A stretch of 44,370 bases of DNA from Methanothrix sp. (GTDB lineage Archaea > Halobacteriota > Methanosarcinia > Methanotrichales > Methanotrichaceae): the NCBI GenBank assembly GCA_026394475.1, contig JAPKYD010000080.1, positions 1 to 44,370 on the forward strand, in the 5' to 3' direction. Below are positions 2,366-43,864 of this stretch, one piece after another (the first letter of the stretch is position 1; each line of letters opens with the position of its first letter). A program made the translations under genes and the position numbers. The notes under the pieces are model-generated. The model had not been told where the DNA came from and did not search any database. It saw only the letters and a list, made by a program, of their open reading frames with translations.

Positions 2366-3475
2366 TCAGTAGATCTCCTCTAGGTCCTCGATATGGGCGA
2401 AGGCGTCATCCATCTGCTTTCTGGCTCGCAGCCTCTTCTCCTTCTCGTCTTGCATGGCTCGAGCCGCCTGGGCATAGATGGCTTCAAGCTCTGGTGCGCT
2501 GGCCATGGTGAAGACCGAGAGCACCTTGGGATGCCCCTTCTTGACTACAATGCCCTTGAAGACGTGACCTGCACTGGCAGAGAGCCTCTCCACCTCTTTG
2601 GTGATCTCATCCACATCCAGATACTCCCTGGACCCCTGTATTATGATCATCGCTCTGGCGGAGTCGTCGGTCACATTGGCAGGATAGAGCAGGTTGACAG
2701 GCTTGAGGCTGTTCTCGATGGCATCCCTCACGGACGGATTCTTGCGATCCGCCTGGTAGAATCCCATGGTGCCTATGCGCAGGCCGCCGTTCATGACCGT
2801 CTTGAAGTCGCCAAGGTCAGTTACCGAGAGCATCTCGCTATCCAAAGATTCGATCAGGAAAAGCAAGCGCTGGGCGATCATGCTGTTGATCTTGTCATAG
2901 GCGGAGGCGATGTCTCCACTGAACCTCTTGAGATACTGATTGTCTGCTAAAATTATGCCCTCAGCTTCCACGTCCATCAGCTCCCTCATGCTGAAAGCAG
3001 CATTCTGGAGGTAAATGGACCCCTCTTCCCGGAAAGGCAGGACAGCAATGGTGATGACGGTGATGTTTCGATATTGCCTCTTGAGTTCGTTTATCAGCAG
3101 GGGTGAGAACGATGAGCCGGTTCCACCGGAGGTCGAGGTGATCACAAAGGCCAAATCGAAGTCGCCCCTCTTCTCGATCTCGCCCATGATCATGTCGCGA
3201 TTGTCCATAAACGCTTGCTTGCCCACGTTTCTATTGGCTCCCACGCCGTGCAGGTTCGGGACGTGCAATCTGTCCTTGGCTGTGGTGAACCTCAGCTCTT
3301 TCAGGTCGTTTATGGCTGTGTTGACGGCCAGAGTCTCCACCCGACTGGGAAACTTGGGCCGCAAACAATACTTGGTCAGGCTGGAGGCCCCACCGCCTCC
3401 CAAGGCCTCCTTATTTATGGCATCCAGTATTCGGTTACCGCACTGGCCTACGCCGAGCATGAGTACGTTGAGCAT
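2366..3475 (-). CDS. CetZ/FtsZ-like tubulin-superfamily GTPase
   Basis: A 369-residue tubulin/FtsZ-superfamily GTPase. Visible motifs are the N-terminal nucleotide loop GVGQCGNRI (8-16), the tubulin signature SGGTGSS (about 116-122) and a T7 loop region VTDLGDFKTVM (218-228). In FtsZ the T7 loop is NxDxxD; here the first Asn position is Val but both acidic residues (D220, D223) remain. The long insert between strands and the lack of an FtsZ-like C-terminal peptide fit the archaeal CetZ or non-canonical FtsZ-like group, linked to cell shape rather than division. It converges on the FwdC-like gene with a 6-nt gap. A TATA-like ACTATATC about 25 nt upstream suggests its own promoter. Confidence 0.8.
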   Translation of the reverse strand: MLNVLMLGVGQCGNRILDAINKEALGGGGASSLTKYCLRPKFPSRVETLAVNTAINDLKELRFTTAKDRLHVPNLHGVGANRNVGKQAFMDNRDMIMGEIEKRGDFDLAFVITSTSGGTGSSFSPLLINELKRQYRNITVITIAVLPFREEGSIYLQNAAFSMRELMDVEAEGIILADNQYLKRFSGDIASAYDKINSMIAQRLLFLIESLDSEMLSVTDLGDFKTVMNGGLRIGTMGFYQADRKNPSVRDAIENSLKPVNLLYPANVTDDSARAMIIIQGSREYLDVDEITKEVERLSASAGHVFKGIVVKKGHPKVLSVFTMASAPELEAIYAQAARAMQDEKEKRLRARKQMDDAFAHIEDLEEIY

Positions 3476-3518
3476 GATATCAAATCCCGTTCGGGCTTAA
3501 ATTGATATAGTCACTCCT

Positions 3519-4682
3519 TCAATATTTATACTCTCTGTATCGCCTATACATCCATGCGATGATAACTATGATTGGGAGGATAGGTAGGAGATATAGATAT
3601 TTATACTCTTGTTCCTGGACAACCACCTCGACCTTGCCTTCCTGGATCATGGCTGCATCTCCTCCCTGAAAGCTTGCCTTGAGGCTGACGGTATAGTTTC
3701 CAGCCTTCTTGCCCAGCAGCTCTGCGGAGTAGTTCACCTCCTGTTCGGGAGGGATCTCGAAGAGGCTCTTCTCCAGTCCTATGGCCTCCAGGCCATCCGG
3801 CGGCTTGATCTGCGCTTCGATCTTTACCCTGGTGGCGGAAGCCTTTCCAGTATTGGACAGACTGACGTTCAGCATGCCCTTGCCGCCAGCTGCTATTGGT
3901 CCAGAGGGATCCAGCTTTATCACCAGATCGGGCTTGCTCTCGGGATTTATCAAGATGTTAAAGGGCTCAGAGCTATTGGATTTGGCATTCTTCTTCGAAT
4001 CCGTGTAGCTGACCTGTATGGCCGGAACCCGGATGGAGCCTTCTTTGACAGCACTCATCACATACACAGCAGAATCTGCCCCCCCTGGGTCCAGCGTGTC
4101 CTTGATCTTGGGCGGATAGCCGGCGATATAAGAGAACTCCGGCAGCGGCGGCAGATCCTCCGTTCCTATATTCAGGGCCTGTCCAGTGCCAATGTTCTTA
4201 ACCGTAACCGTGACCTTGACCTCGTCTCCCACACTCATCTGATTCTTGTCGAAACTCTTCCCTACCACCAGATTGGGACGGTCCGCAATGACGCGAGGCC
4301 TCTCCGACGTATGCTTCCTGGCCGTGCCCAAATCCTCTTTATATTCTACCCTGACTTTGACGGATTGATCATCGAATATGTCGGTTACTGTGATGGTGAT
4401 GCCGCCATCTTCCGCCCCACCATCAATATTATTGGCGCTGTCCAGTAGGAAGGCCCTTTGATCCTCCAGGGGACTACCTACCTTGGAGACTTGCATTACT
4501 GCTAGGCCATCCTTCACCGACTGTATCTCTATAAGCTCGGCCTGGTAGTCGCCGATGTCGATGCGGTCGCCAATGTTAAGGGTGAAATCCTTGAACGTAA
4601 CAGTATCTTCATCAGAAGAATTGATGGCATGAACTGCTTGGATCAGCAGAATGAAGACCGCTAGATAGATCATGCGCCTCAT
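3519..4682 (-). CDS. Exported CARDB-type protein with C-terminal anchor
   Basis: A 387-residue protein with an N-terminal signal peptide (residues 1-20, ending AVHA), two or three beta-sandwich domains and a single C-terminal membrane helix (about 362-378) followed by a basic tail (RRYREYKY). The segments VKNIGTGQALNIG (about 170) and VSLSNTGKASATRVKI (about 275) are typical of CARDB/COG1361 adhesion-like modules of archaeal surface proteins. It faces outward and is anchored at its C-terminus. A TATA-like stretch GTATATAG just upstream indicates a separate promoter from nadC. A second protein with the same architecture lies at 23820-24758. Exact function unknown. Confidence 0.7.
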   Translation of the reverse strand: MRRMIYLAVFILLIQAVHAINSSDEDTVTFKDFTLNIGDRIDIGDYQAELIEIQSVKDGLAVMQVSKVGSPLEDQRAFLLDSANNIDGGAEDGGITITVTDIFDDQSVKVRVEYKEDLGTARKHTSERPRVIADRPNLVVGKSFDKNQMSVGDEVKVTVTVKNIGTGQALNIGTEDLPPLPEFSYIAGYPPKIKDTLDPGGADSAVYVMSAVKEGSIRVPAIQVSYTDSKKNAKSNSSEPFNILINPESKPDLVIKLDPSGPIAAGGKGMLNVSLSNTGKASATRVKIEAQIKPPDGLEAIGLEKSLFEIPPEQEVNYSAELLGKKAGNYTVSLKASFQGGDAAMIQEGKVEVVVQEQEYKYLYLLPILPIIVIIAWMYRRYREYKY

Positions 4683-4717
4683 ACCAGACCACCGTCTATA
4701 TACTTCGTAGGCATACC

Positions 4718-5539
4718 TTATTCTATCTCCAGGCTTAGGTCAATCCATCTCGCATTTCTGGTGAGATCGCCCAAGGAGATAACATCCACTCCCGTGGAGG
4801 CATAGTCTTCGATATCATTGGGTTTTATTCCTCCCGATGCCTCCAAGAGTACGCGGTTGCGGAGCCCTCTCTTCTGGAGAAGCTCTATGCCCTTTGCTAT
4901 CTCTGCCGGAGCCATGTTGTCGAACATGATGATGTCAGCGCCCATTTCCGCTGCCAGGAGCATATCCTCCAGGTTCTCCACCTCCACCTCGATCTTCTTG
5001 GTGAAGCTGGCCTGGCTCCTGGCCCGGCGCAGGCTTTCCTCCAATCCCTGAAGATGTATGTGATTATCCTTGATGAGCACGGCGTCAGAGAGATTGAACC
5101 TGTGAGTGTCGCCTCCTCCCAGGAAGACCGCCTTCTTCTCATATAATCTGAAGCCGGGGGTGGTCTTGCGGGTGCATGCGACCCGGACGCTGCCCCGGGC
5201 TTTTGCGCGCAGCACGCACTCGCGCGTGAGGGTGGATATGCCGCTCATCCGCGCCATGAAGTTCAGCACCAGTCTCTCGGATTGCAGTATCTTTCGGGCA
5301 TTGCCGCGCACATAGATCACCTCCCCTCCGGCCGGGACGCCCTCGCCTTCCTCGAAGAGAGGCTCTGCTTCTAGCCCGAAGTACGCGAAGATCTCCAAAG
5401 CTTCAGTCAATCCGGAGATTATGCAGTTCTCTTTGGCTATGATGACCGCTTTCGCCTCCGCCTCGCGAACGAGATTGCTGGAATCATCCCACTCCCCCAG
5501 GTCCTCTTCTACAAATCTCTCCAGCTCTGACCTCAGCAT
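4718..5539 (-). CDS. nadC: Nicotinate-nucleotide pyrophosphorylase (quinolinate phosphoribosyltransferase)
   Basis: NadC makes nicotinate mononucleotide from quinolinate and PRPP in NAD synthesis. The 273-residue protein has the family hallmarks: RKTTPGFR (about 138-145), GGGDTHRFNLSDAVLIKDNH (about 155-174), the acidic strand EVEVEN and the C-terminal LEASGGI / GVDVISLGDLT phosphate-binding segments. The start at 5539 (MLRSELERF) is preferred because it matches the usual N-terminus; an upstream in-frame ATG at 5653 would run into the divergent nadX gene. The 40 bp between nadC and nadX must hold both promoters. The pairing links quinolinate use with aspartate oxidation. Confidence 0.93.
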   Translation of the reverse strand: MLRSELERFVEEDLGEWDDSSNLVREAEAKAVIIAKENCIISGLTEALEIFAYFGLEAEPLFEEGEGVPAGGEVIYVRGNARKILQSERLVLNFMARMSGISTLTRECVLRAKARGSVRVACTRKTTPGFRLYEKKAVFLGGGDTHRFNLSDAVLIKDNHIHLQGLEESLRRARSQASFTKKIEVEVENLEDMLLAAEMGADIIMFDNMAPAEIAKGIELLQKRGLRNRVLLEASGGIKPNDIEDYASTGVDVISLGDLTRNARWIDLSLEIE

Positions 5540-5579
5540 ACCGCAAGGATTTTGATGTCCAATTGATTTATAGCCTCCG

Positions 5580-6392
5580 ATGCCTCTCAAGATAGGGCTT
5601 GTCGGGTGCGGTGCCATCGGGACGGAGATCGCAAGAGCGATAGATAGCGGCAAGATAGAAGCGGATCTGGTTGCGGTATGCGATCATAATCCCGCGACCG
5701 TGATCGCCCTCATCGATAGCCTGCAGCATAAGCCGGTCAGAGCCAGGCTGGAGGAGCTGGTGAGCCTCTCCGACCTGGTGGTGGAGGCTGCCTCCCAGAA
5801 GGCAGTGCCGGCCGTCGCCAGGGCCACCCTGGAGAAGGGCAAGAACCTGATGATCATGAGCGTCGGAGCCCTGGCAGAGCTGGAATTTTATCGCGAAGTG
5901 AAGAAGCTGGCCGAGGAGCGCGGCTCCAGGGTCTACATCCCCTCAGGCGCGATATCAGGGCTTGACGGCCTCAAGTCCGCCAGCATTGGCACCATTCGCA
6001 AGGTCACTCTCACCACCACCAAGAACCCCAGGGGGCTTGAGGGCGCGCCTTACATTCTGGAGAATAAGATCGATCTGGAGGCGCTCAAAGAGCCTGCGGT
6101 GATCTTCGAGGGAAGCGCGGCCGAGGCGGTCAAGGCCTTCCCCGCCAATGTGAACGTTGCCGCCACGTTGTGCCTCGCGGCTCGCGAGGGCGAGGTGCGG
6201 GTGAAGATAATCGCGGATCCTCACATCAACGTTAACCGCCATGAGATCGTGGCGGAGGGCGACTTCGGGCAAATCTTCACCAGGGTGGAGAATGTGCCCT
6301 CTCCCAAGAACCCCAAGACCAGCTATCTTGCGGCGCTTTCGGCCATAGCCACCCTGAGATCCATAGTGGAGCCCTTGAAGATAGGGACTTAA
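5580..6392 (+). CDS. nadX: L-aspartate dehydrogenase
   Basis: NadX oxidises L-aspartate to iminoaspartate with NAD(P), replacing aspartate oxidase as the first step of quinolinate synthesis. The 270-residue protein begins with a Rossmann motif (IGLVGCGAIGTEIARAI) and carries the family segments YIPSGAISGLDG (about 120-131), NVNVAATLCLAA (about 190-201) and ADPHINVNRHEI (about 212-223), which includes the likely catalytic histidine. It is divergent from nadC, so two of the three enzymes of de novo quinolinate-to-NaMN synthesis lie together; nadA is not in the window. The stop overlaps the convergent NosD-like gene by 4 nt. Confidence 0.9.
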   Translation: MPLKIGLVGCGAIGTEIARAIDSGKIEADLVAVCDHNPATVIALIDSLQHKPVRARLEELVSLSDLVVEAASQKAVPAVARATLEKGKNLMIMSVGALAELEFYREVKKLAEERGSRVYIPSGAISGLDGLKSASIGTIRKVTLTTTKNPRGLEGAPYILENKIDLEALKEPAVIFEGSAAEAVKAFPANVNVAATLCLAAREGEVRVKIIADPHINVNRHEIVAEGDFGQIFTRVENVPSPKNPKTSYLAALSAIATLRSIVEPLKIGT

Positions 6393-14764: not shown

Positions 14765-16474
14765 TCATCTCCTGGCGAAGAGCAGCTCCAGTTGGCTCTG
14801 GTTTATTACTACTATCACCGGCCGCCCATGCGGGCAGGTGAGGGGATTCTGGCAGGTGTAGAGATCCTCAAGGAGCCTGTGCATCTCTACAGCGGTGAGC
14901 TCTTTTCCCGATTTAATGGAGCCCTTGCAGGCCAGGAGCTTGAGGATCTCTTCTCTGCTGGTGGAGTCCGGGCCCACCCGACCGGAGGCGAAGAGATCCC
15001 TCAGGATGTCGTGCACCGTTTCGGCGTCTTCCAGCCTTCTGCCTAGAGCTGGCACGGCCCTGACGCTGTAGGTATTTCCTCCAAAGGGAATGATCTCAAA
15101 GCCTATGTCTTGGAGCGTCTCCTGCCAGGACCGAATCAGAATCTGCTCATGAGGAGACAGCTCAATGGCTATGGGCTCCGCCAGCTCCTGTTTGATTCTC
15201 TTGTGGAGGTATGTCTCTTGCAGCCGCTCAAATCTGATGCGCTCTGCAGCAGCATGCTGGTCGATGAGCATCAGCCCCTGGTCTCCTTCGGCAACGATGT
15301 AGAGATCCAGGACCTGACCCAAGATCTTCAGCCTCGGCTGCTCTCCGGCCATTGCGACCGCTTCCACTCTTTCGCCCAGCTCCAAAGGCAGCGTCCTCTG
15401 CTCGCAGCTCTGGGCGATCGCGGCCCTGGAGGGGGGGTGCTCCGTGGGGAATATCTCGCCTGAACGTGCCTGGGCGGGCTGTGCCTGGGCCTGGAGGGCC
15501 AAAGCCACGGCTTGCGAGAGCGCGCTGCAGATCTCCTCCTCTCGCAGCAGCCGTATCTCTCTCTTGGCCGGATGAACATTCACATCCACCAGCTCCGGGC
15601 TGATCTCTAGGGAGATGACGGCTATGGGGCTTCGACCCGCGGGAATGATATTTCGGTAAGCCTCCCGCAGAGCTCCCGCCAGAGCCTTGGAGGCCACGGC
15701 CCGGCCGTTGACGAAGATGAAGATCCTGTCCGGGGTGCTCCTGGTGCTGAAAGGGTCTCCGGCAGCGCCAGAAAGGCGCCAGCTCCGGCCTTCCGCCTGC
15801 AGGACCGCCATGGCCTTAAGGATTTTCAGGCCGAAGATGCGCAGCAGGACATCCTCCCAGGTGGCGGATTTTATGGACTTGAATATGGTGCGCCGGCCAG
15901 AGAAGAGCTCGAAGGAGATGCCGTGGTTGATGATGGCCATCTCGGTGATGGCGTTCGTGATGTGCACCAGCTCCGCTTCCGCGCCCTTGAGGTGCTTTCG
16001 TCTGGCCGGGACGTTGTAAAAGAGATCTCGAACGGCTATGCTGGTGCCCGCCGGGCAGCCTGTCTCCTTGATCTCGGCTATCTTGCCGCTCTCCATGCAA
16101 AGGCGGGTGCCAAAGAGCGCTGACCTGATCTTGGTATAGACCTCTACACTGCGGGAGACGCTGGCAATGCTGGCCAGGGCCTCACCCCGGAAGCCCAGGG
16201 TGCAGATCTTCTCCAGATCCCTGGCTTCGCTGATCTTGGAGGTGGCATGCTTCTGAAAGGCCAGGGGCAGATCCTCGGGATCTATGCCGCAGCCGTCGTC
16301 CGTCACCTTGATGAGGCTCTTTCCTCCCTCGGCCACCTCCACCAGCACCTTCCTGGCTCCTGCGTCGATGGCGTTCTCCACCAGCTCCTTGACCGCTGAG
16401 GCGGGCCGCTCGATAACCTCGCCCGCAGCGATCTTGTTTATGGTCTCCTCGTCTAAAAGCCTAATCTTGGCCAT
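14765..16474 (-). CDS. mutL: DNA mismatch repair protein MutL
   Basis: A 569-residue MutL. The GHKL ATPase domain shows [11 protein letters not shown] (motif I), DDGCGI (motif II) and [12 protein letters not shown] (motif III). The C-terminal domain has the metal-binding endonuclease motif [12 protein letters not shown] (DQHAx2Ex4E) near residue 420 and ends with CPHGRP, so the nicking function of E. coli-unlike MutL proteins should be present. It overlaps the end of mutS by 14 nt and forms an operon with it. MutS/MutL in methanogens is thought to have been gained from bacteria. With mutS broken, this copy may have lost its partner. Confidence 0.95.
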
Positions 16475-18888
16475 CTCTCTCTCTCAGCATCTTTTGATAC
16501 TCGGCTAACCTGTTCAGAGCATCGCGGGGGGTCAGGGAATCGATATCCAGGCCCAGGATCTCTTCCCGAATGGGGTCTTTTGTCTGGGGCTGCAGCGCGC
16601 CCACACCTGGCGAGTCAAAGAATATGAGCTGGGTGTATTTCGCAGATCTTCTTCCTCTTTTGGTCTTGGTAAGGGGCTCGATCACCGCCTCGCTCTCGAT
16701 CTGCTTCAAGATCTCCTCCGCCCTCTTGGTCACCGCCTCGGGCACTCCTGCCAGGCGAGCGACATGCACTCCGTAGCTCTTGTCCGTCGCCCCTGGCACC
16801 ACCGTTCTAAGAAAGGTGATGGTGCCCTTCTCCTCTTTTACAGCGATGCTGTAGTTCTTGACTCCAGGCAGCACGCCTTCCAGCTGTGTCAGCTGGTGGT
16901 AGTGGGTGGCAAAGACGGCCTTGCACTTTACGACGTTGTGCAGATACTCGGAGATGGCCCAGGCGAGGGACAAGCCGTCAAAGGTGCTCGTGCCCCGTCC
17001 CACCTCATCCAGCAGCACCAGGCTGTCCTTGGTGGCGTTGTCCAGTATATTCGCGAGCTCCGTCATCTCCACCATGAAGGTGCTCTGGCCTGCGGATAAA
17101 TCATCGTAAGCGCCGACGCGGGTGAAGATGCGGTCCACGAGAGCGAGCGAGGCAAAGCCAGCGGGCACGAAGGACCCGGCCTGGGCCAAGATGGCGCAAA
17201 GCGCTATTTGACGCATGAAGGTGGATTTGCCGGCCATATTGGGTCCGGTGAGGATGAGGAGACGGTTATGATCGTTGTCCAGGAGGACGTCGTTGGGCGA
17301 TCTTTTCGCGGACCCGATTGAAGATCTCCTGCTCCAGGGATGTGGACCGCTCCTGGGCAGAGATCACCTTGGATTCCATCTCCTTTAGCTCCGGGGTGAT
17401 GAAACGCTCTGCGTTGGCCATAGTCTGCTTACGGATGTAGTCCTCCGGAACCAGGTGCAGATTAGCCCTAGAGACCTCCAGGTAATAGCCAAAGACGTTG
17501 GTGTAGCCGACTTTCAGGGATTTTATGCCCGTCCTCCTTCGCTCTTGTCCCTCCAGGCGCGAGATCCAGCCCTTGCCGTCCCGCAGCAGAGCGCGAAGCC
17601 CGTCGAGCTCAGGGTCAAAGCCGTCTCTGATCACGCCGCCGTCGCGAAGGTTGGCAGGCGGATCGTCAGCTACCGACTTTTCTATTAATGCTACCACGTC
17701 CTCCAGGGGACCGAGTTGAGATCGGAGGTCCTGCAAATGGGAAGAGGCGATGTTTTCCAGAGCGCTGCGTAGGCTAGGAAGCCTTTGCAGAGTGCTCTTC
17801 AGTGCCATCAGATCCCTGGGATTGGCAGCGCCGCAGGAGACTCTGGAGACCAGCCGCTCCAGGTCCGATGCGCCTTTCAGCTCCTCGCCAAGGCCGCTTC
17901 GCAGCACGGAGTCGCTACACAGCTCTTCCACCGCGCCCAGACGTCTCTTTATCTTTTCCAAAGAGAGCAGAGGCATCTGAATCCAGCGGGCCAGGGTGCG
18001 GGCGCCCATGGGCGTCTTGGTCTCGCCCAAAAACTCTAGCAACGTTCCCCGGCGGGACCGGTCCCGAATGTTGCGAAGGATCTCCAGGTTGCGCAATGTT
18101 ATTTCGTCCAGCACCATGAACTCCGAGCCAAAGTAAAGCCGGATCTCGGTTAGATGCCCCAAGGCGTCGAAGTGAGATCGGTGCAGGTAGGAGAGAATCG
18201 CTCCGCAGGCGCGAGCGGAAAGAGGCTTGTCCGCCAGTCTGAGCCGCTCCGCATAGCCGGGCCCAAACTGGCCTTCCAGGGCCCGGCCAGCATTTTCCAG
18301 GGAGAAGCAGTCCTCTTCCAGAATCTGCTGGCGCGTGCCCTCCCAGCTAAGGGAGAAGGGAGCGATGCACTCTGCAGGCCGGAACTTGGCCAGCTCCGAA
18401 GGCAGTCGCTCGGCTGGAATCTCCGTGGTCAGGAACTCGCCGGTGGAGACGTCCACCAGGGCCAGACCGATCCGGCCGTTCTCTTCCACAACCGCGGCAA
18501 GGAAGTTGTTGCAGGACTCCTCCAGCATGGCCGGCTCGATGATAGTGCCAGGGGTCACCACGCGGGTGATCTCCCTCTTCACCAGACCCTTGGCAGTTTT
18601 CGGGTCCTCCACCTGATCGCAGATGGCCACCTTGTGTCCAGCCTTGATGAGCCTGGCCAGGTAGGTCTCCAGGGCGTGGTAGGGAACGCCTGCCAGAGGA
18701 ATCTTGTTCCCTTCGTCATCCCTCTGGCGGGAGGTAAGAGTGATGTTCAGATCGCGGGAGACGATGACGGCGTCCTCGGCGAAGGTCTCGTAAAAGTCGC
18801 CCACTCGGAATAGTAGTATTGCGTCCGGGTATTGCTGCTTTTCTCTATAGTACTGCTCCATCAGGGGAGAGAGCTTAGATGCTGGCAT
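16461..18888 (-). pseudogene. mutS: mutS interrupted by internal deletion and frameshift
   Basis: The N-terminal part (18888 to about 17300) carries the mismatch-binding domain start (LLFRVGDFYETFAEDA), connector and lever domains up to NRVREKIA. The C-terminal part (from about 17297) resumes in another frame at [20 protein letters not shown] and contains the full ATPase: [11 protein letters not shown] (Walker A), [12 protein letters not shown] (Walker B) and [11 protein letters not shown]. By comparison with E. coli MutS from memory, about 65 residues between the lever helix and the ATPase are missing, and the join also changes frame, giving a stop at about 17266. Full length would be near 870-890 residues. 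The start at 18888 (MPASKLSPLMEQYY) is preferred. Assembly error is the main alternative to a real deletion. Confidence 0.9.
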
Positions 18889-19190
18889 TCTTGGCCTGTT
18901 GTTCCCGGAATTTTTCGGATAATTCTCCTTTTCGCCCTGCATCGTGGATGCCCTCTGCCAAAGGCTGAGTCAGACTGCTCCTAAGGTCTCTGGTGTCGTT
19001 CGCTAAGGCATAAACCTCCTCCAGAACTGCCCACCAGAACTCCTTTTGGCTTTTGCCAACTAAAAAGCTTTGGTCGCGAAGCTTCTTGGATCTGAGAGAA
19101 GCTTTTCCAGAGGCTCGCCGCTGATCTTGCTGCCATGTACGGATTGTATACTGGCCTGGTTTTCTGCTTTAGGTTCAATAGATGTCGACC
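18875..19190 (-). pseudogene. Frameshifted remnant upstream of mutS
   Basis: Too short and broken to stand out, but both halves look coding. In one frame the minus strand reads ASIQSVHGSKISGEPLEKLL and then SDPRSFATKAF up to a stop at 19062-19060. From there another frame continues with LVGKSQKEFWWAVLEEVYAL and ends KFREQQAKNASI at a TAA at 18875, overlapping the mutS start. Adding one T to the five-T run at 19062-19066 joins the halves into one frame. No start codon is visible in the first half. The family is not recognised. The overlap with mutS suggests that the two once formed an operon. Confidence 0.5.
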
Positions 19191-21077: not shown

Positions 21078-21189
21078 CGCTGAGGGTGAGATTTGAACTC
21101 ACGAGGTGCGATGCACCACTGGTTATCCTGTCCCGGCATCGGGCCGGGGACCTCAAGACCAGCGCCGTAGGCCGCTTGGCTACCTCAGC
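21078..21189 (-). tRNA. tRNA-Ser(UGA) with intron
   Basis: On the minus strand GCTGAGG (from 21189) pairs with CCTCAGC to close the acceptor stem, with discriminator G at 21078 and no encoded CCA. The D arm starts GCCAAGCGGCC. The anticodon stem is CTGGT/ACCAG, interrupted after position 37 by a 27-nt intron (21125-21151) that folds into a GC-rich hairpin. The anticodon loop reads CUUGAG-A, giving anticodon UGA. A long variable arm (GGTGC/GCACC) and T arm (GTGAG-TTCAAAT-CTCAC) complete a class II tRNA of 85 nt after splicing. The long variable arm and discriminator G support Ser rather than Leu. Confidence 0.92.
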
Positions 21190-24828: not shown

Positions 24829-25324
24829 CTATTTCGCAGAGGCCATCTCCATAGCCTCCTTGGCGCTCAGATCCTGGTGAACCACAGCGCAGATGCGGCG
24901 CACGATGAGCGCCGGGCTCTCGTGTTGGAAGACGTTGCGTCCGATGGCCACGTCGCGGGCTCCCGCGCCAATCGCCCCTTCCACCATTCTGAGGAGGTCT
25001 TGCTCAGACTCCACCTGTGGCCCTCCCGCGATGACCAGAGGAATGGGGCAGCTCTCCACCACCCTGGCGAAGCTGTCCTGGTCGCCGGTGTAGATGGATT
25101 ATCAGGCCCGGGTCGTGCCCGTAGCCCCGGTGGCCGAAGGCGGCCGCGCCCTTGTGGACCACGGCGGCATCGGCTCCGCCGGAGGCCACTGCATCGGCGA
25201 TGGTCTTGACGCTTTTGATGCCCTTGATGGGCCCGACACTGATCCCGTGATCCATGGGAATTATGACTGTGTTGCCTGTATTGCGGTTGATTATCCTCTC
25301 CATGCGAATCGATGTTCCTCTCAA
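24829..25324 (-). pseudogene. Class I aldolase/ADH synthase gene with internal deletion
   Basis: Two frames together show the ends of an archaeal fructose-bisphosphate aldolase-like protein of the 2-amino-3,7-dideoxy-heptulosonate (ADH) synthase type, used for aromatic amino acid synthesis. The N-part has [36 protein letters not shown] and LIIHL. The C-part resumes, in another frame, at [20 protein letters not shown] and ends with AIGRNVFQHESP. By comparison with MJ0400 from memory, about 100 residues are missing at 25086-25096, including the catalytic segment ending in the Schiff-base Lys (DIVKT) and the YPRG Tyr. The encoded product cannot be active. A TTG at 25324 or an ATG at 25303 could be the start. 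Confidence 0.87.
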
Positions 25325-26542: not shown

Positions 26543-28259
26543 TCAATGTTCAAAGTGCAACATCACCCGGCAGACTCCATCTTTGCAGTCCGAGGTCACT
26601 TTATCAGCCAGCTTCCTGATGAGATCGACGGAGAGCCTGGATAGACTTCCGTCGTCCGTAAAATCAGGATCTGACTGGGAAAGGTCTTGAAGTGGAAACG
26701 GTTTCCCATGGTACTGGACAGACAGGTCCAGGTTGAATTCATCAAATCTCACGTCCACAACTATCTTCTCTTCAGCCAGATTGAGCAAGGTCACGGTCTC
26801 AGCTATCTCATTCAGCGCTGAGATCGCCTTGTAAATCACTTCTCTTCTAGCTCCCCAGGCCGCTCCCTGGATTTCCATGAAGGAGAAAATATCATCAGAA
26901 GTGCTCTTTTTGGGCTCCAAGACCAATTGGACCTTCTTGGCCAAGCCCAGACGAAATAGAAAGGTCAGGACTATGGCCAGCAGGGTAGCCAGATAGAGCG
27001 TTGAGCTGAAGATGGGCCGCACCAAAGGATTCGGTATCTGGGAATAGACATTCACTAAGCCCATCACGGAAAGCCCGAAGATGAGGGAGATTCCCAAAAC
27101 GAAGATCTTGCGGGAGTCCATCATCCTGGACATCATCATCTGCAAGCCGATGATGACGATGAAGCACACTGCAAATATGGGCGTTGCACCCATGACCGGC
27201 TGAGGCATGATCACGAAGATCTCTGCAATGCGGGGGAGAAAGGCCAGGGCAATCAGAATGCCTCCTGTGGAGTAGGCGATCTTCCTGCTGGTGGCCCCCG
27301 TAGCCAGACTGAGGCCGATGTTGCTGGAGGCTGAAGACTGGCCCATTCCTCCCAAAAGGCCGCTCAGACTCATGCTCAAGCCATCAGATAAGAGTCCTTG
27401 TTTGATGCTCTGCATCTGGGGCCGTTTCCAGTCCAGGTCATTGATCTTCTGGCAGGTGGTTATGTTGCCGAGGGTCTTTACTGAAGCGCAAAGGCTGGAG
27501 ATGGCGAAGGGTATTATCAGGGACGGATCAAAGGACCATCTCAGGACACTAAAATTGGGCAGGGCAACTAGGGGAGCATTGAGCAAACCGATGAAATTGT
27601 TCTGGGCCGAGGAGGCCGAAAAGATACGATGCTGCATAGCCCACGATCATGCCTATGAGAACTGAGTAGAGCTTGGTCTTCCCCCCGCTCCAGATCGTTA
27701 TGCTCACCATGGTTCCCAAGGTAATCAGTGAGACCAGCAGAACCGTCGGATCTATAGTCGATTGACCCTCTTTCAGGCCCAGAAAGTTGGGAACGGCCAC
27801 GGGTATGATCGATACGCCAACCATCGCTACCACCAGGCCGGTCACTTCGGGCGTGAAGATGAATCTTAAGCGCTGCACAACCCTGGACACTGCGATCTCG
27901 AAGAGACCGGATAGCGCGGTCATGCCGAAGACCAGGGGTAATCCGCCCATCTTGGCGGCCAGCAAGGACGCGGTGATATAGGCCGGCTCACAGACTGCTG
28001 GGGCAAAGTATCCCGATCCAATGCCGCGCCTGTTCAGGGCCTGGAGGATGGTGGCGATGCCCCCTGCCAGAAGGGACATGCTGACAAAGAAGGCTGCCTC
28101 CTCATCAGTTCCGGAGAAGCCGTGTATCACCATGAGGGCGAAGGCAATGGCCGTGGTGACCTGAAAGGTGTGCTGAAGGCCCAAGAGGATGCAAGTAGGA
28201 AGAGGAACCTCGTCATCCACTCCATAGATGAGGTCAGGTGGCTTTCGTCTGGCTGGCAT
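26543..28259 (-). pseudogene. NCS2 xanthine/uracil permease fused to an ATPase-like domain, frameshifted
   Basis: The first frame (28259 to about 27597) holds an NCS2 nucleobase permease N-half with several helices, PLPTCILLGLQHTFQVTTAI and the FAPAVCEPAYITAS segment. After FGLLGPEQF the second frame continues IGLLNAPLVALPNF, then GLLGGMGQSSASSNIGLSLA and further helices. Removing one T from the three-T run at 27594-27596 restores one protein of about 570 residues. The last about 115 residues are soluble and resemble a GHKL/anti-sigma ATPase domain: ALNEIAETVTLLN, DVRFDEFNLDLSVQYHGKPF and LSRLSVDLIRKLADKV. This fusion is unusual. The defect could be a sequencing error in a homopolymer or a real frameshift. 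Confidence 0.8.
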
Positions 28260-39593: not shown

Positions 39594-40126
39594 ACCTGTG
39601 GCTTGCATTGGGCTTTAGAAATAAAGAAATATTGCAAAAATGGATGAGAATTAGGGCAGCATTCGGCGTTATCTTGGCGCCATCCCGTTCAGGCTGTACA
39701 GGGTCAGCGGCCTGCGATCCTGCTGAAAATAGAGGTTTAGAGCTGCTTGAATGGTCTCCGAGGCACCTTTGCTTGTGGCCTCGATTGAGCGGCATGATCG
39801 TCCGAGAGCCGGATGCTCATGTGTATCATGAAAAGCACATTGGAGCACAGGAAGGTACTCTGGCCGTCGAGCTACGCCACTTTTAAGAATCATCAGAAAT
39901 TTGGAGTAAATAGATTCTCAGATTCTGGTCATTTCATTGCCTGCGCCTTCAACCTCGCCTCCTCGGCGGTCATCTTTCCGCAGCCCCCCAGGTAGAGGCT
40001 GTGGCTTTTGTCTCCGTGTTTCCAGGGCGTATGCCTGAGGGGTGATCAAGCTCCATTGCAATTATCAGATGGCCGCCACCCTTGGTCCACAATCTCCGGG
40101 CACTTGGCCAAGAGGGGAGTATTTCG
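39594..40126. other. Gene-poor region with a possible small remnant
   Basis: No intact gene is supported here. On the minus strand at 40044-39929 a frame without start codon reads WKHGDKSHSLYLGGCGKMTA and ends EEARLKAQAMK; it resembles the conserved part of small mobile-element-associated proteins (DUF6788-like) by eye only. The rest shows no signal I can support on either strand. Confidence 0.35.
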
Positions 40127-41317
40127 ATGAAAGAGCCTAACAGGTTCAAATGGATGATTCCGGTCCTGTTCATTTTTGTCCTGAGCGCATCTTGCGCCCT
40201 AGGTCAGGGCCAATCAGGCAATAATCTTCCTGGAGATGCCCTACAGGTTCAGCCGGGCCAGGCTGTTCAGGATAGCATCAGCAAGGCCGGGGAGACCCAT
40301 TACTTCCTGCTTCCCATGGATACATCCGGAATTGTTTCCATATCGGTGGACGGCGTGCCAGGGGATATGAAGCCGCACATCACCCTCAACAATGAGTACT
40401 TCGGGCTGTGGGGCTCTGCCATTCAGGCAGACAAGACCGCAACCAACGCAGGTGATTCCTTGAGCCTGGAGAAAGATATGCCAGGACCCGGCGGCTGCTA
40501 CATCACAGTCTCGGATGCCGATGGCAAGGCCCATAGCTCGTCTTACTCTTTGAAGGTGGACTTCAGGCCGGCCCCAGATGCAAATGAGCCCAACAACCTG
40601 CCAGGCGAGGCCACAATTGTCAAGCCCAACCAGGCAGTAAAAGCCTACATCTGCCCGAGCAGCGACATAGATTACTACAGGCTGGATGTAAACACCTCGG
40701 GAATCCTGGCCCTAAAGGTGGACGATGTCCCTGAGGACATGAAGCCCTACATCAAACTCAGGAATGAGTATTATTTTCTGTGGGGGAACTCAGAGATCGG
40801 GGACAAGACTGCAACCAATGCGGGAGAACCACTAACCCTTGAGAAGGGCTTGCTCGGACCCCGTGGCTACCTCATCGCAGTCTCGGACGCCGATGGCAAA
40901 GCGCACTCCGATTCCTACACACTGACATTTGCCTTCGAGCCAGCACCAGATAACTATGAGCCCAATAACGATATTGGCGACGCAACCGAAGTCAAGTTGG
41001 ATCAGCCTGTCACCGCCTACATTTGCCCTGGAGATGACAAGGACTTCTACAAGCTATACATGAACAGCCCTGGAGTAGTTGCCATCAAAGTGGATGGCGT
41101 TTCTGAGGATATGAGGCCTTACCTGATGATACGGGATAAGAACAACCGCCAGATCGCTGACAAGGGTGCCACCAACCCTGGTGATACTCTGATCCTGGAG
41201 AAGGACCTAGAAGCTGGATGGAATTACTTCGCCGTATCGGATGCTGATGGGAAGGCCCACAGCGAGCCCTACACCATTGATGTGAGCCTGAAGGCCAGTG
41301 TAGAGGGGACCAAGTGA
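40127..41317 (+). CDS. Exported protein with three PPC-like repeats
   Basis: A 396-residue secreted protein with a signal peptide (about 1-27, ending ASCALG) and three about 120-residue beta-sandwich repeats. Each repeat contains an EPNN-like opening, a hydrophobic TSGI-x3-V-D-V-P-x-D-M-K-P-Y strand and an end motif SDADGKAHS, as in bacterial pre-peptidase C-terminal (PPC) domains. GAGGGGAG before ATG 40127 supports this start. The same repeat type recurs at 42797-43864, so the two genes are related. Probably a surface or matrix protein; no enzyme domain is visible. Confidence 0.8.
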   Translation: MKEPNRFKWMIPVLFIFVLSASCALGQGQSGNNLPGDALQVQPGQAVQDSISKAGETHYFLLPMDTSGIVSISVDGVPGDMKPHITLNNEYFGLWGSAIQADKTATNAGDSLSLEKDMPGPGGCYITVSDADGKAHSSSYSLKVDFRPAPDANEPNNLPGEATIVKPNQAVKAYICPSSDIDYYRLDVNTSGILALKVDDVPEDMKPYIKLRNEYYFLWGNSEIGDKTATNAGEPLTLEKGLLGPRGYLIAVSDADGKAHSDSYTLTFAFEPAPDNYEPNNDIGDATEVKLDQPVTAYICPGDDKDFYKLYMNSPGVVAIKVDGVSEDMRPYLMIRDKNNRQIADKGATNPGDTLILEKDLEAGWNYFAVSDADGKAHSEPYTIDVSLKASVEGTK

Positions 41318-41416
41318 GATTTCTATTACGCGATGTTATGGAGGATGGAGATCATGACTTGGATGTTTGGGGATGAAGGAGATAGAACTTTGCCGGTGCA
41401 AGCAACGGTTTTGATA

Positions 41417-42643
41417 ATGAAGAATCTAAAACTCATTCAATCGGGATTCAAGCGACAAAGACATTTGGGCCACAGTCTCACGACCTTGATCTGCCTGGCG
41501 CTTCTGCTGGTCTGCCAGACCCAGGCGGCTGGCCCTGAGGCGGCAACGCTGGATGATCTGAGCAAGGATTGGGATACTCCATTTACTGAAAAGTTGTACT
41601 TGGTGCATTCACCAGGCTACACGGATAAAACGGGGGTTTCTGTTTTGGAGGATAAGTGGTTCCTAAGTCCACGCAAGCCCATAAATGGTTCCCTTGTATT
41701 ACCATGGATCTATGGCAAATACAGCATTGACAAACTTCAGGGACCTTTTGATACCTATAGAGCGGTCTGCGCTTGCGCGAACGGAATGAGCGGACCCGCA
41801 ATTGAAATATATGTCCATAGCCTTGCCCCGCTCCCATTCAGCTGTAAAGACATCACGACACAACCGAGCGGGACCAACAAACCCGAAGAAGGACCTTGTG
41901 CGAATGCCTGTGATAAGAGTAAACATCTGATCTGGGATGGCTATGCCGGCTGCAGCTGCATCTGCGAAGATGGATGGAAGTTCGACGAACACGGCGACTG
42001 CATGCTCTTCGCAGAAAACGAAACTGAAGCAGCAATGGAAGCAGAGCTTACCTTAGAATTGGAGACTAATGAAGGCACAAAAGTGATAAAGACAGGAGAT
42101 CGGACACAAATTAGCTTGGCCGCAGGCGACAAGGCGAAAGTGATAGCGATTTGTAAAGCTATTATAGCAGATCTAGCAACCTTTGATATCTTGATGGGCC
42201 TTACGAATGAAACTTCAGTAGAGCTGGACAATGTTTTTAAATTAGGATTATTATATCAGGGATTGGATTGCAAAAAATTGCTGAGAAGTGCTGGAATTGG
42301 AAAAGTATTTGAGGATGGTTCCATAGCTTCATCATCAGACCTGGCTGGAGGTCAACCGATGAAAATTGAATTGGATCTCCAACGAGGTCCTCTCGGCATC
42401 GAGGTTTCTCAGGATATTGTAGCCATTGATGTTGATACACCCACGGCCATCGTTTCATCCACAGGCAAAAACAAATTTGGTGTAGCTTACAATCCGGAGA
42501 TAGGCCGAACCGTTGTCACAGCTCTTCGATATCCAGTTACCGTCCACCCGACATCCGGCAATCAGGCTCCCTTTACCCTGGCGGCCGGTCAGCAGGTGGA
42601 GGTAAGCTCAGAAGGAGTAGGGGCCGTAATGCCCATAAATTAG
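41417..42643 (+). CDS. Exported protein with Cys-rich and FecR-like parts, ended by TAG
   Basis: A 408-residue protein with a signal peptide (about 12-37, ending CQTQA). A Cys-rich, EGF-like stretch follows (CANACDKSKHL and GCSCICEDGWKFDEHGDCM, about 165-195). The C-terminal part (about 325-408) resembles a FecR-type beta domain (FTLAAGQQVEVSSEGV). The frame stops at TAG 42641-42643, but the same frame is open for 51 more codons and then enters the PPC repeats of the next entry. I therefore read this as the N-terminal part of one 815-codon gene. In-frame ATGs at 41333-41363 are alternative starts; 41417 gives the most normal signal peptide. Confidence 0.65.
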   Translation: MKNLKLIQSGFKRQRHLGHSLTTLICLALLLVCQTQAAGPEAATLDDLSKDWDTPFTEKLYLVHSPGYTDKTGVSVLEDKWFLSPRKPINGSLVLPWIYGKYSIDKLQGPFDTYRAVCACANGMSGPAIEIYVHSLAPLPFSCKDITTQPSGTNKPEEGPCANACDKSKHLIWDGYAGCSCICEDGWKFDEHGDCMLFAENETEAAMEAELTLELETNEGTKVIKTGDRTQISLAAGDKAKVIAICKAIIADLATFDILMGLTNETSVELDNVFKLGLLYQGLDCKKLLRSAGIGKVFEDGSIASSSDLAGGQPMKIELDLQRGPLGIEVSQDIVAIDVDTPTAIVSSTGKNKFGVAYNPEIGRTVVTALRYPVTVHPTSGNQAPFTLAAGQQVEVSSEGVGAVMPIN

Positions 42644-42780
42644 ACTAGTAATAATGGCACAGCTCCAGGATCTCGAGCAGCTGGCGTACCCGGCGCGGGC
42701 AATGCCACAGCAGGAAATGCCACCTCCGGCGGAGAAGGCATCAGCGCTCCAGGCGGCCCAGGCGCGCCAGGAGCTTCTAG

Positions 42781-43860
42781 CACTGGAACATCCACGGTGA
42801 GCCCAAGCGGCAACAACCAGATCGGAGACGCAGCCGATATCAGCGCAGGCCAGTCCGTCAGCCAGACCATCAGCCCGGCAGGCTCCAGCAACTTCTACAG
42901 GTTCCAAGCGGGCAGCTCGGGAATTGTGAAGCTGAAGCTGGAGAATGTGCCCAAAGATATGAGGCCATACCTATGCCTGTACGATAAGAACCTGGCCCCA
43001 ATCTCCGAAAAATCGGCTTCGAACGCCGGAGATGTGCTGAACCTGGAGAAGGATGTTCAGGGGCCAGGCTGGTTCTACATCGAGGCCAGGGACATTGATG
43101 GAAAAGCCCACAGCGAGCCCTACACTTTGGATGTCGCCTTTGAGCCTGCACCAGATCAGTATGAGCCTAACCCTAACTACTTCCGGGCCACCGATGTAAA
43201 ATCCGGTGAGGATATCAATGCCTATATCTGCCCAGGCAGTGACGATGACTTCTACAAGATCTTTGTGGATACATCAGGAATCCTCAAGCTGAAGCTGGAC
43301 GGCGTTCCGGCAGATATGAGATCCTATCTGCAGCTGTATGATAAGGGCTTCGGCAATTCGATAGCCTCCAGTTCCGCCTCCAGCCCTGGAGATAAGGTGG
43401 GACTGGAGAAGGATATCCAGGGTCCAGGCTGGTTCTACATCAGGGTTCAAGATGCTGATGGAAAGGCCCACAGCGAGCCTTACACTTTGAATGTTGCCTT
43501 CGAGCCTGCGCCAGATCAGTATGAGCCCAACCCCAACTACTTCCGTGCGACACAGATAGCGCAAGGCCAATCCATTACAGCATACATCTGCCCTTCAGGG
43601 GATGAAGACTTCTACAAGTTCTACATGGGCTCTTCAGGAATAGTGAAGGTGACGCTGGACAGCGTTCCGGCAGATATGAGATCCTGGCTACAGCTGTATG
43701 ATAAGGGCTTCGGCAATTCGATAGCCTCCAGTACCGCCTCCAGCCCAGGAGATAAGGTGAGACTGGAGAAGGATGTCCAGGGTCCGGGCTGGTTCTACAT
43801 CAGGGTTCAAGATGCTGATGGCAAGGCCCACAGCGAGCCCTACACACTGACTGTTGCCCT
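42781..43860 (+). repeat. Three tandem 360-bp coding repeats
   Basis: The DNA repeats with a period of exactly 360 bp. CCAGATCAGTATGAGCC occurs at 43151 and 43511, and GTTCCGGCAGATATGAGATCC near 43304 and 43664. Units 2 (43141-43500) and 3 (43501-43860) are close to identical over their second half; unit 1 is more diverged. Such repeats can expand, contract or be collapsed by an assembler. Confidence 0.85.
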
Positions 43861-43864
43861 GTGA
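42797..43864 (+). CDS. C-terminal PPC-repeat half of the TAG-split surface-protein gene
   Basis: Three about 120-residue PPC-like repeats, the last two nearly identical (LQLYDKGFGNSIASS and VQDADGKAHSEPYTL in both). The only candidate start is a GTG at 42797 without a ribosome-binding site. The frame is open back to the TAG at 42641 and the 51 codons between read as a Gly/Ala/Pro/Thr linker with three N-glycosylation sequons (NGT, NAT, NAT). It lacks a signal peptide of its own, so a separately made protein would stay in the cytoplasm. This supports a single split or recoded gene with 41417-42643. Confidence 0.6.
   Translation: MSPSGNNQIGDAADISAGQSVSQTISPAGSSNFYRFQAGSSGIVKLKLENVPKDMRPYLCLYDKNLAPISEKSASNAGDVLNLEKDVQGPGWFYIEARDIDGKAHSEPYTLDVAFEPAPDQYEPNPNYFRATDVKSGEDINAYICPGSDDDFYKIFVDTSGILKLKLDGVPADMRSYLQLYDKGFGNSIASSSASSPGDKVGLEKDIQGPGWFYIRVQDADGKAHSEPYTLNVAFEPAPDQYEPNPNYFRATQIAQGQSITAYICPSGDEDFYKFYMGSSGIVKVTLDSVPADMRSWLQLYDKGFGNSIASSTASSPGDKVRLEKDVQGPGWFYIRVQDADGKAHSEPYTLTVAL

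Follow-up and report, generated by a model that had tools for sequence, protein, structure and literature searches.

A secreted-protein gene of Methanothrix sp. has probably been cut by a single-substitution nonsense change at a glutamine codon, the interrupted reading frame having once been continuous. The gene lies in a 44,370-nucleotide stretch (the window), which is the entire contig C36 of a 1.92-Mb, 134-contig, 84%-complete metagenome-assembled genome (MAG); the close relatives that carry names are Methanothrix/Methanosaeta MAGs. Positions 41417-43864 form a frame of 816 codons (815 residues on translation) with one internal stop, the TAG at 42641-42643. In the reading we favour, one gene would have encoded a signal peptide, an EGF-like module, a FecR-like beta domain, a sequon-rich linker and three pre-peptidase C-terminal (PPC) repeats, and a C-to-T change would have turned the Gln codon at the start of the linker into TAG. 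As the TAG is a true stop here, translation would end after 408 residues. What is predicted still to be made and exported is the FecR-like part; the PPC repeats would be lost, because a restart at GTG 42797 offers neither a signal peptide nor a ribosome-binding site. Such a gene resembles the archaeal pseudogenes that arise by single substitution: a lone in-frame stop takes the place of a conserved sense codon, the remainder is intact and intact relatives exist, and we see no essential difference. Several points count against this reading: the TAG is carried by one assembled consensus only, further ORF-breaking lesions lie on the same contig, the intact viral copy described below is a mosaic, and a distant bacterial homologue (L040) has a residue other than Gln at the site.

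The initial annotation had described two open reading frames as a single frame split by one TAG, and translation bears this out. Between 42644 and the GTG at 42797 there are 51 codons with no stop among them, which contain the sequons NGT, NAT and NAT, as it had also stated; given the base composition, a run of this length would occur by chance with P about 0.13, whereas the 406 open codons that follow the TAG would do so with P about 7e-8. No second stop or frameshift was found in the post-TAG frame. This half matches the Pfam PPC family (PF04151, E=6.5e-13, 49.8 bits against a gathering score of 25.9) and is 50% identical to the product of the gene immediately upstream (40082-41317), so the encoded protein is real. 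The upstream gene lies in the same frame, but downstream of its TGA, unlike the TAG, a new start and a signal peptide are present. By inspection, GTG 42797 lacks a Shine-Dalgarno-like sequence ahead of it, and the second half is devoid of a signal peptide, in agreement with the earlier description. The parts of the locus are listed in Table 1.

Table 1. Parts of the interrupted gene and its upstream neighbour (window coordinates).
Feature	Position	Strand	Basis or remark
Upstream intact paralogue, secreted, three PPC-type repeats, own signal peptide, TGA end	40082..41317	+	PF04151 just under cut-off
Beginning of the interrupted gene, with its signal peptide	41417..41530	+	MKNLKL...LTTLICLALLLVCQTQAAG, by inspection
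Cys-rich EGF-like module	41891..42004	+	Alignment to cEGF-like repeats in the viral copy, where PF12662 matches
FecR-like extracytoplasmic beta domain (predicted), end of first half	42041..42640	+	Profile, four other family genomes; AlphaFold2 fold match
In-frame TAG in place of a Gln codon	42641..42643	+	CAG in L049; CAG, CAA and CAG in L006, L007 and L008
Gly/Ala/Pro linker bearing N-glycosylation sequons; intact relatives have a homologous linker	42644..42796	+	Shuffle tests
Three PPC repeats with a period of 360 nt, presumably not translated	42797..43861	+	PF04151; dN/dS 0.17 against L049

The number of PPC repeats varies, since the last two (window 43220-43858) are 87% identical at the DNA level and the viral copy described below has one repeat fewer.

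Evidence for former continuity comes first from a contig of an archaeal head-tail virus (IMG/VR UViG_3300028916_000006, here L049), in which the two genes again stand side by side and the split gene is present as an uninterrupted, 750-aa version. Its linker is the same, its PPC repeats are ~90% identical, and around the stop the two proteins align without a gap (SSEGVGAVMPIN*TSNNGTAPGS against SAEGVGPAVSLAQLGTNGTAPGS in L049). The orthologue alignment that had been proposed as a check thus finds Gln in the viral copy and in three host homologues, with the codons given in Table 1; a fourth, L005, has a gap at this position. None of L049, L006, L007 and L008 carries a TAG at the site, and the stop is seen in this genome only. 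Downstream of the site L007 reads NGTAPGSGATA, recognisably the same linker. The linker alignment score was reached by 0 of 2000 shuffles against L049 and by 5 of 2000 against L007; the match to L008 was not significant in the same test. From these comparisons we conclude that the gene was formerly continuous and that the residue replaced by the stop was glutamine.

The halves might instead be two genuine genes that share a frame by chance, the second starting at GTG 42797, and relatives do have separate genes for secreted proteins made of PPC repeats alone. Those proteins, however, have signal peptides, and the second half here has neither a signal peptide nor a ribosome-binding site. In addition, the linker ahead of the GTG is homologous to one that lies within a continuous protein. 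The closest copy is continuous, so the separate genes with their own signal peptides that the initial annotation had named as refuting evidence were not found in it, and with the viral copy intact we reject the two-gene reading as very improbable.

The first half gave no Pfam match, the FecR profile included. An AlphaFold2 model of its beta-rich domain has a mean pLDDT of 69, rising to 77-96 over the C-terminal part, and matches two anti-sigma ectodomains of FecR/PupR type, 4M0N and 6OVK (E about 1e-6, Foldseek probability 1.00). The predicted fold of 42041-42640 resembles these domains, although the TM-score is below 0.5 and the setting is an archaeal secreted protein with neither a sigma factor nor a TonB system; on the model, the relation to FecR is one of fold resemblance only. 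Likewise, the three repeats after the TAG are of the type of bacterial PPC domains, but here no peptidase is attached and they belong to an archaeal secreted protein. A scan of the genome collection with the single protein as query gave no match; a profile of the FecR-like domain alone succeeded, with five records in the genome collection, four other genomes of the family and one viral contig. The architectures differ, and the more distant members have the N-domain alone or joined to a different C-terminal domain: in L007 and L008 the linker leads into such a domain, whereas in L005 and L006 the protein ends shortly past the FecR-like domain. The family is thus modular, with the short form one of its natural architectures.

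Pyrrolysine is the 22nd amino acid, and an in-frame TAG in a methanogen gene invites comparison with the pyrrolysine genes mtmB, mtbB and mttB of Methanosarcinaceae. The present case differs from these in that the family has no pyl genes, the residue replaced is Gln, the product is a secreted surface protein and the TAG is not conserved. Function requires the pylTSBCD set (PMC2933860). PylS occurs in 24 members of the class that belong to other families, but among 37 genomes of the family, namely this 84%-complete genome and 36 others, none gave a PylS match over the cut-off (the best match in this genome scored 25.7 bits against 178), and PylD exceeded its cut-off in 0 of 50 family genomes. 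With PylS and PylD absent, the TAG unconserved in orthologues and Gln the residue replaced, we rejected pyrrolysine insertion, which we regard as extremely improbable. The search for pyl genes that had been suggested therefore supports the original judgement, that a nonsense change (CAG to TAG) or a base-call error is likelier than pyrrolysine.

More generally, TAG is an ordinary stop in this genome. It ends 52 of the 178 long ORFs in 299 kb. Beyond TAG the frame is no more open than beyond TGA. In the window it is the normal end of purH, of fwdD (in fwdD/fwdB) and of the second dadD, as had been noted. None of the 33 tRNAs found in the 84%-complete genome has a CUA anticodon, and no suppressor tRNA was detected in the pieces of virus contig.

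These data also bear on partial readthrough, or amber suppression of a non-pyl kind, by which the locus would yield a long and a short surface protein. In its favour, the frame past the TAG is still constrained, and a short form could function, as family members that have no PPC repeats exist. It has also in its favour that the interior nonsense codons of all four affected genes in 779 kb (see below) are TAG, standing opposite Gln in one gene, Lys in two and Lys-Lys-Lys in the other. Against it, TAG is a common stop here with nothing different in the sequence that follows it, no CUA tRNA was found, and relatives have no TAG at these sites. Neither a stimulatory context nor a structure was found after the stop, folding being no stronger than in shuffled sequences (z-scores -0.69, -0.25 and 0.19), and while the downstream frame is under selection the stop itself is kept in no relative. 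Published archaeal readthrough of termination codons is to date limited to Sec and Pyl (PMC8211752). We consider readthrough improbable.

Downstream of the TAG, selection shows no sign of relaxation. For the post-TAG PPC region against L049, dN/dS is 0.17 (95% CI 0.10-0.28), as compared with 0.24 (0.14-0.38) for the intact upstream paralogue, so that constraint past the TAG is no weaker than in a gene that is whole. It follows that the TAG is recent, is present in the consensus only, or is tolerated by readthrough; pairwise values of this kind do not separate the three.

The chief rival is a sequencing or assembly error, in which the gene is intact in the cells and the TAG exists in the MAG consensus only; we judge this unlikely, though by no means negligible. 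The genome is an incomplete MAG in many contigs, there is no relaxation of selection past the stop, and several conserved genes, inside the window and outside it, have been disrupted by deletions or changes of frame. In the window, mutS (16461-18942, minus strand) is interrupted: its two ORFs differ in frame, and between them some 40-80 residues are absent near 17290-17354; the gene for 2-amino-3,7-dideoxy-D-threo-hept-6-ulosonate (ADH) synthase (24853-25318, minus strand) is missing about 100 internal residues and changes frame near 25091; and a xanthine/uracil permease gene (26543-28259, minus strand) appears as two overlapping ORFs that match adjoining halves of the family model. These lesions on the same contig raise the odds of an assembly error, and the consensus of this genome is only partly trustworthy. 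A true loss of mutS could mean a mutator lineage; otherwise that lesion is an assembly error.

Further genome-unique TAGs, which would also fit consensus error, came from a survey of 779 kb of the 1.92 Mb (about 41%) against 1.2 Mb of a finished relative (G004), together with a coding-potential scan. Three more genes have interior TAGs. In the adenine deaminase gene ade (contig C14, L064:8700-8702, minus strand) most relatives have Lys or Arg at the site, and the two with the most similar surroundings have Lys. In a multi-PAS protein, a PAS kinase (contig C61, L210:2163-2165, minus strand), the TAG stands opposite a Lys of the protein's own repeat. In an otherwise intact wHTH-like gene (contig C34, L184:5331-5339, minus strand), TAGTAGTAG replaces Lys-Lys-Lys, which is kept in 13 of 14 relatives, the other having Lys-Arg-Lys. 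TAGTAGTAG across three adjacent codons is hard to obtain by random errors, which counts against a faulty consensus. So does the finished relative, which in 1.2 Mb has one interior stop, a TGA in a RuBisCO-like gene (L159:1576, minus strand), so that interior stops are not artefacts of MAGs alone. Many other apparent mid-gene stops in the survey were discarded: antisense shadow ORFs, gene ends (NAC/HD, Alba/PurN, S8/L6) and stretches that precede the real start of a gene (L18e, NirD-like).

An excess of interior TAGs was considered as proof of recoding and set aside. Among random nonsense changes in this genome TAG is expected in 56% of cases, so four of four is not significant (p about 0.1), and the bias towards Lys at these sites (p about 0.02) was noticed post hoc. 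We hold it very improbable that this Methanothrix lineage reads some TAGs as Lys or Gln through an unrecognised, non-pyl amber-suppressing tRNA. Weighing the nonsense mutation against a consensus error, we infer that the TAG is rather likely a real and recent loss-of-function allele in the cells.

The virus contig deserves notice in its own right. L049 is a genuine head-tail virus, with PHROGs matches to terminase, portal, minor and major head proteins, primase and ParA, and its positions 2592-6122 are a close relative of window 40082-43864, a host-like pair of surface genes in a virus. Its first gene (L049:2591-3822) is about 94-95% identical in nucleotides to the upstream paralogue; identity then falls to about 40-41% over the N-terminal half of the interrupted gene and returns to about 90% past the linker. 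With an N-terminal half at about 41%, the viral copy is a mosaic and not a simple one-to-one orthologue; the pattern looks as if an N-terminal module had been swapped. A DNA search of phage records gave no match. Elsewhere in the genome (L061 near 1162, contig C11), SKRLLKGA* followed by NLNTAR around a TGA resembles a pair of neighbouring virus genes in L110, a hint of a related provirus that a DNA search did not confirm. Separately, window 21078-21189 (minus strand) holds an intron-containing tRNA-Ser(TGA), which Rfam identified, as did ARAGORN when introns were permitted; a default scan missed it, and it overlaps the start of an ORF listed at 21086.

In itself the finding matters little, as it concerns a broken or mis-called surface-protein gene. 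It does serve as a warning not to take an isolated TAG in a methanogen for pyrrolysine, because the Methanothrix relatives have no pyl genes. Were the improbable suppressor tRNA real, the surface protein would be made in short and long forms, and read-through would extend to the TAGs that occupy Gln, Lys and Lys-Lys-Lys positions in four genes intact in every other respect. Of greater interest than the TAG is a virus that carries a host surface locus with an apparently swapped module: the divergent N-terminal module of the viral copy would fit an exchange between virus and host in which surface proteins move as cassettes.
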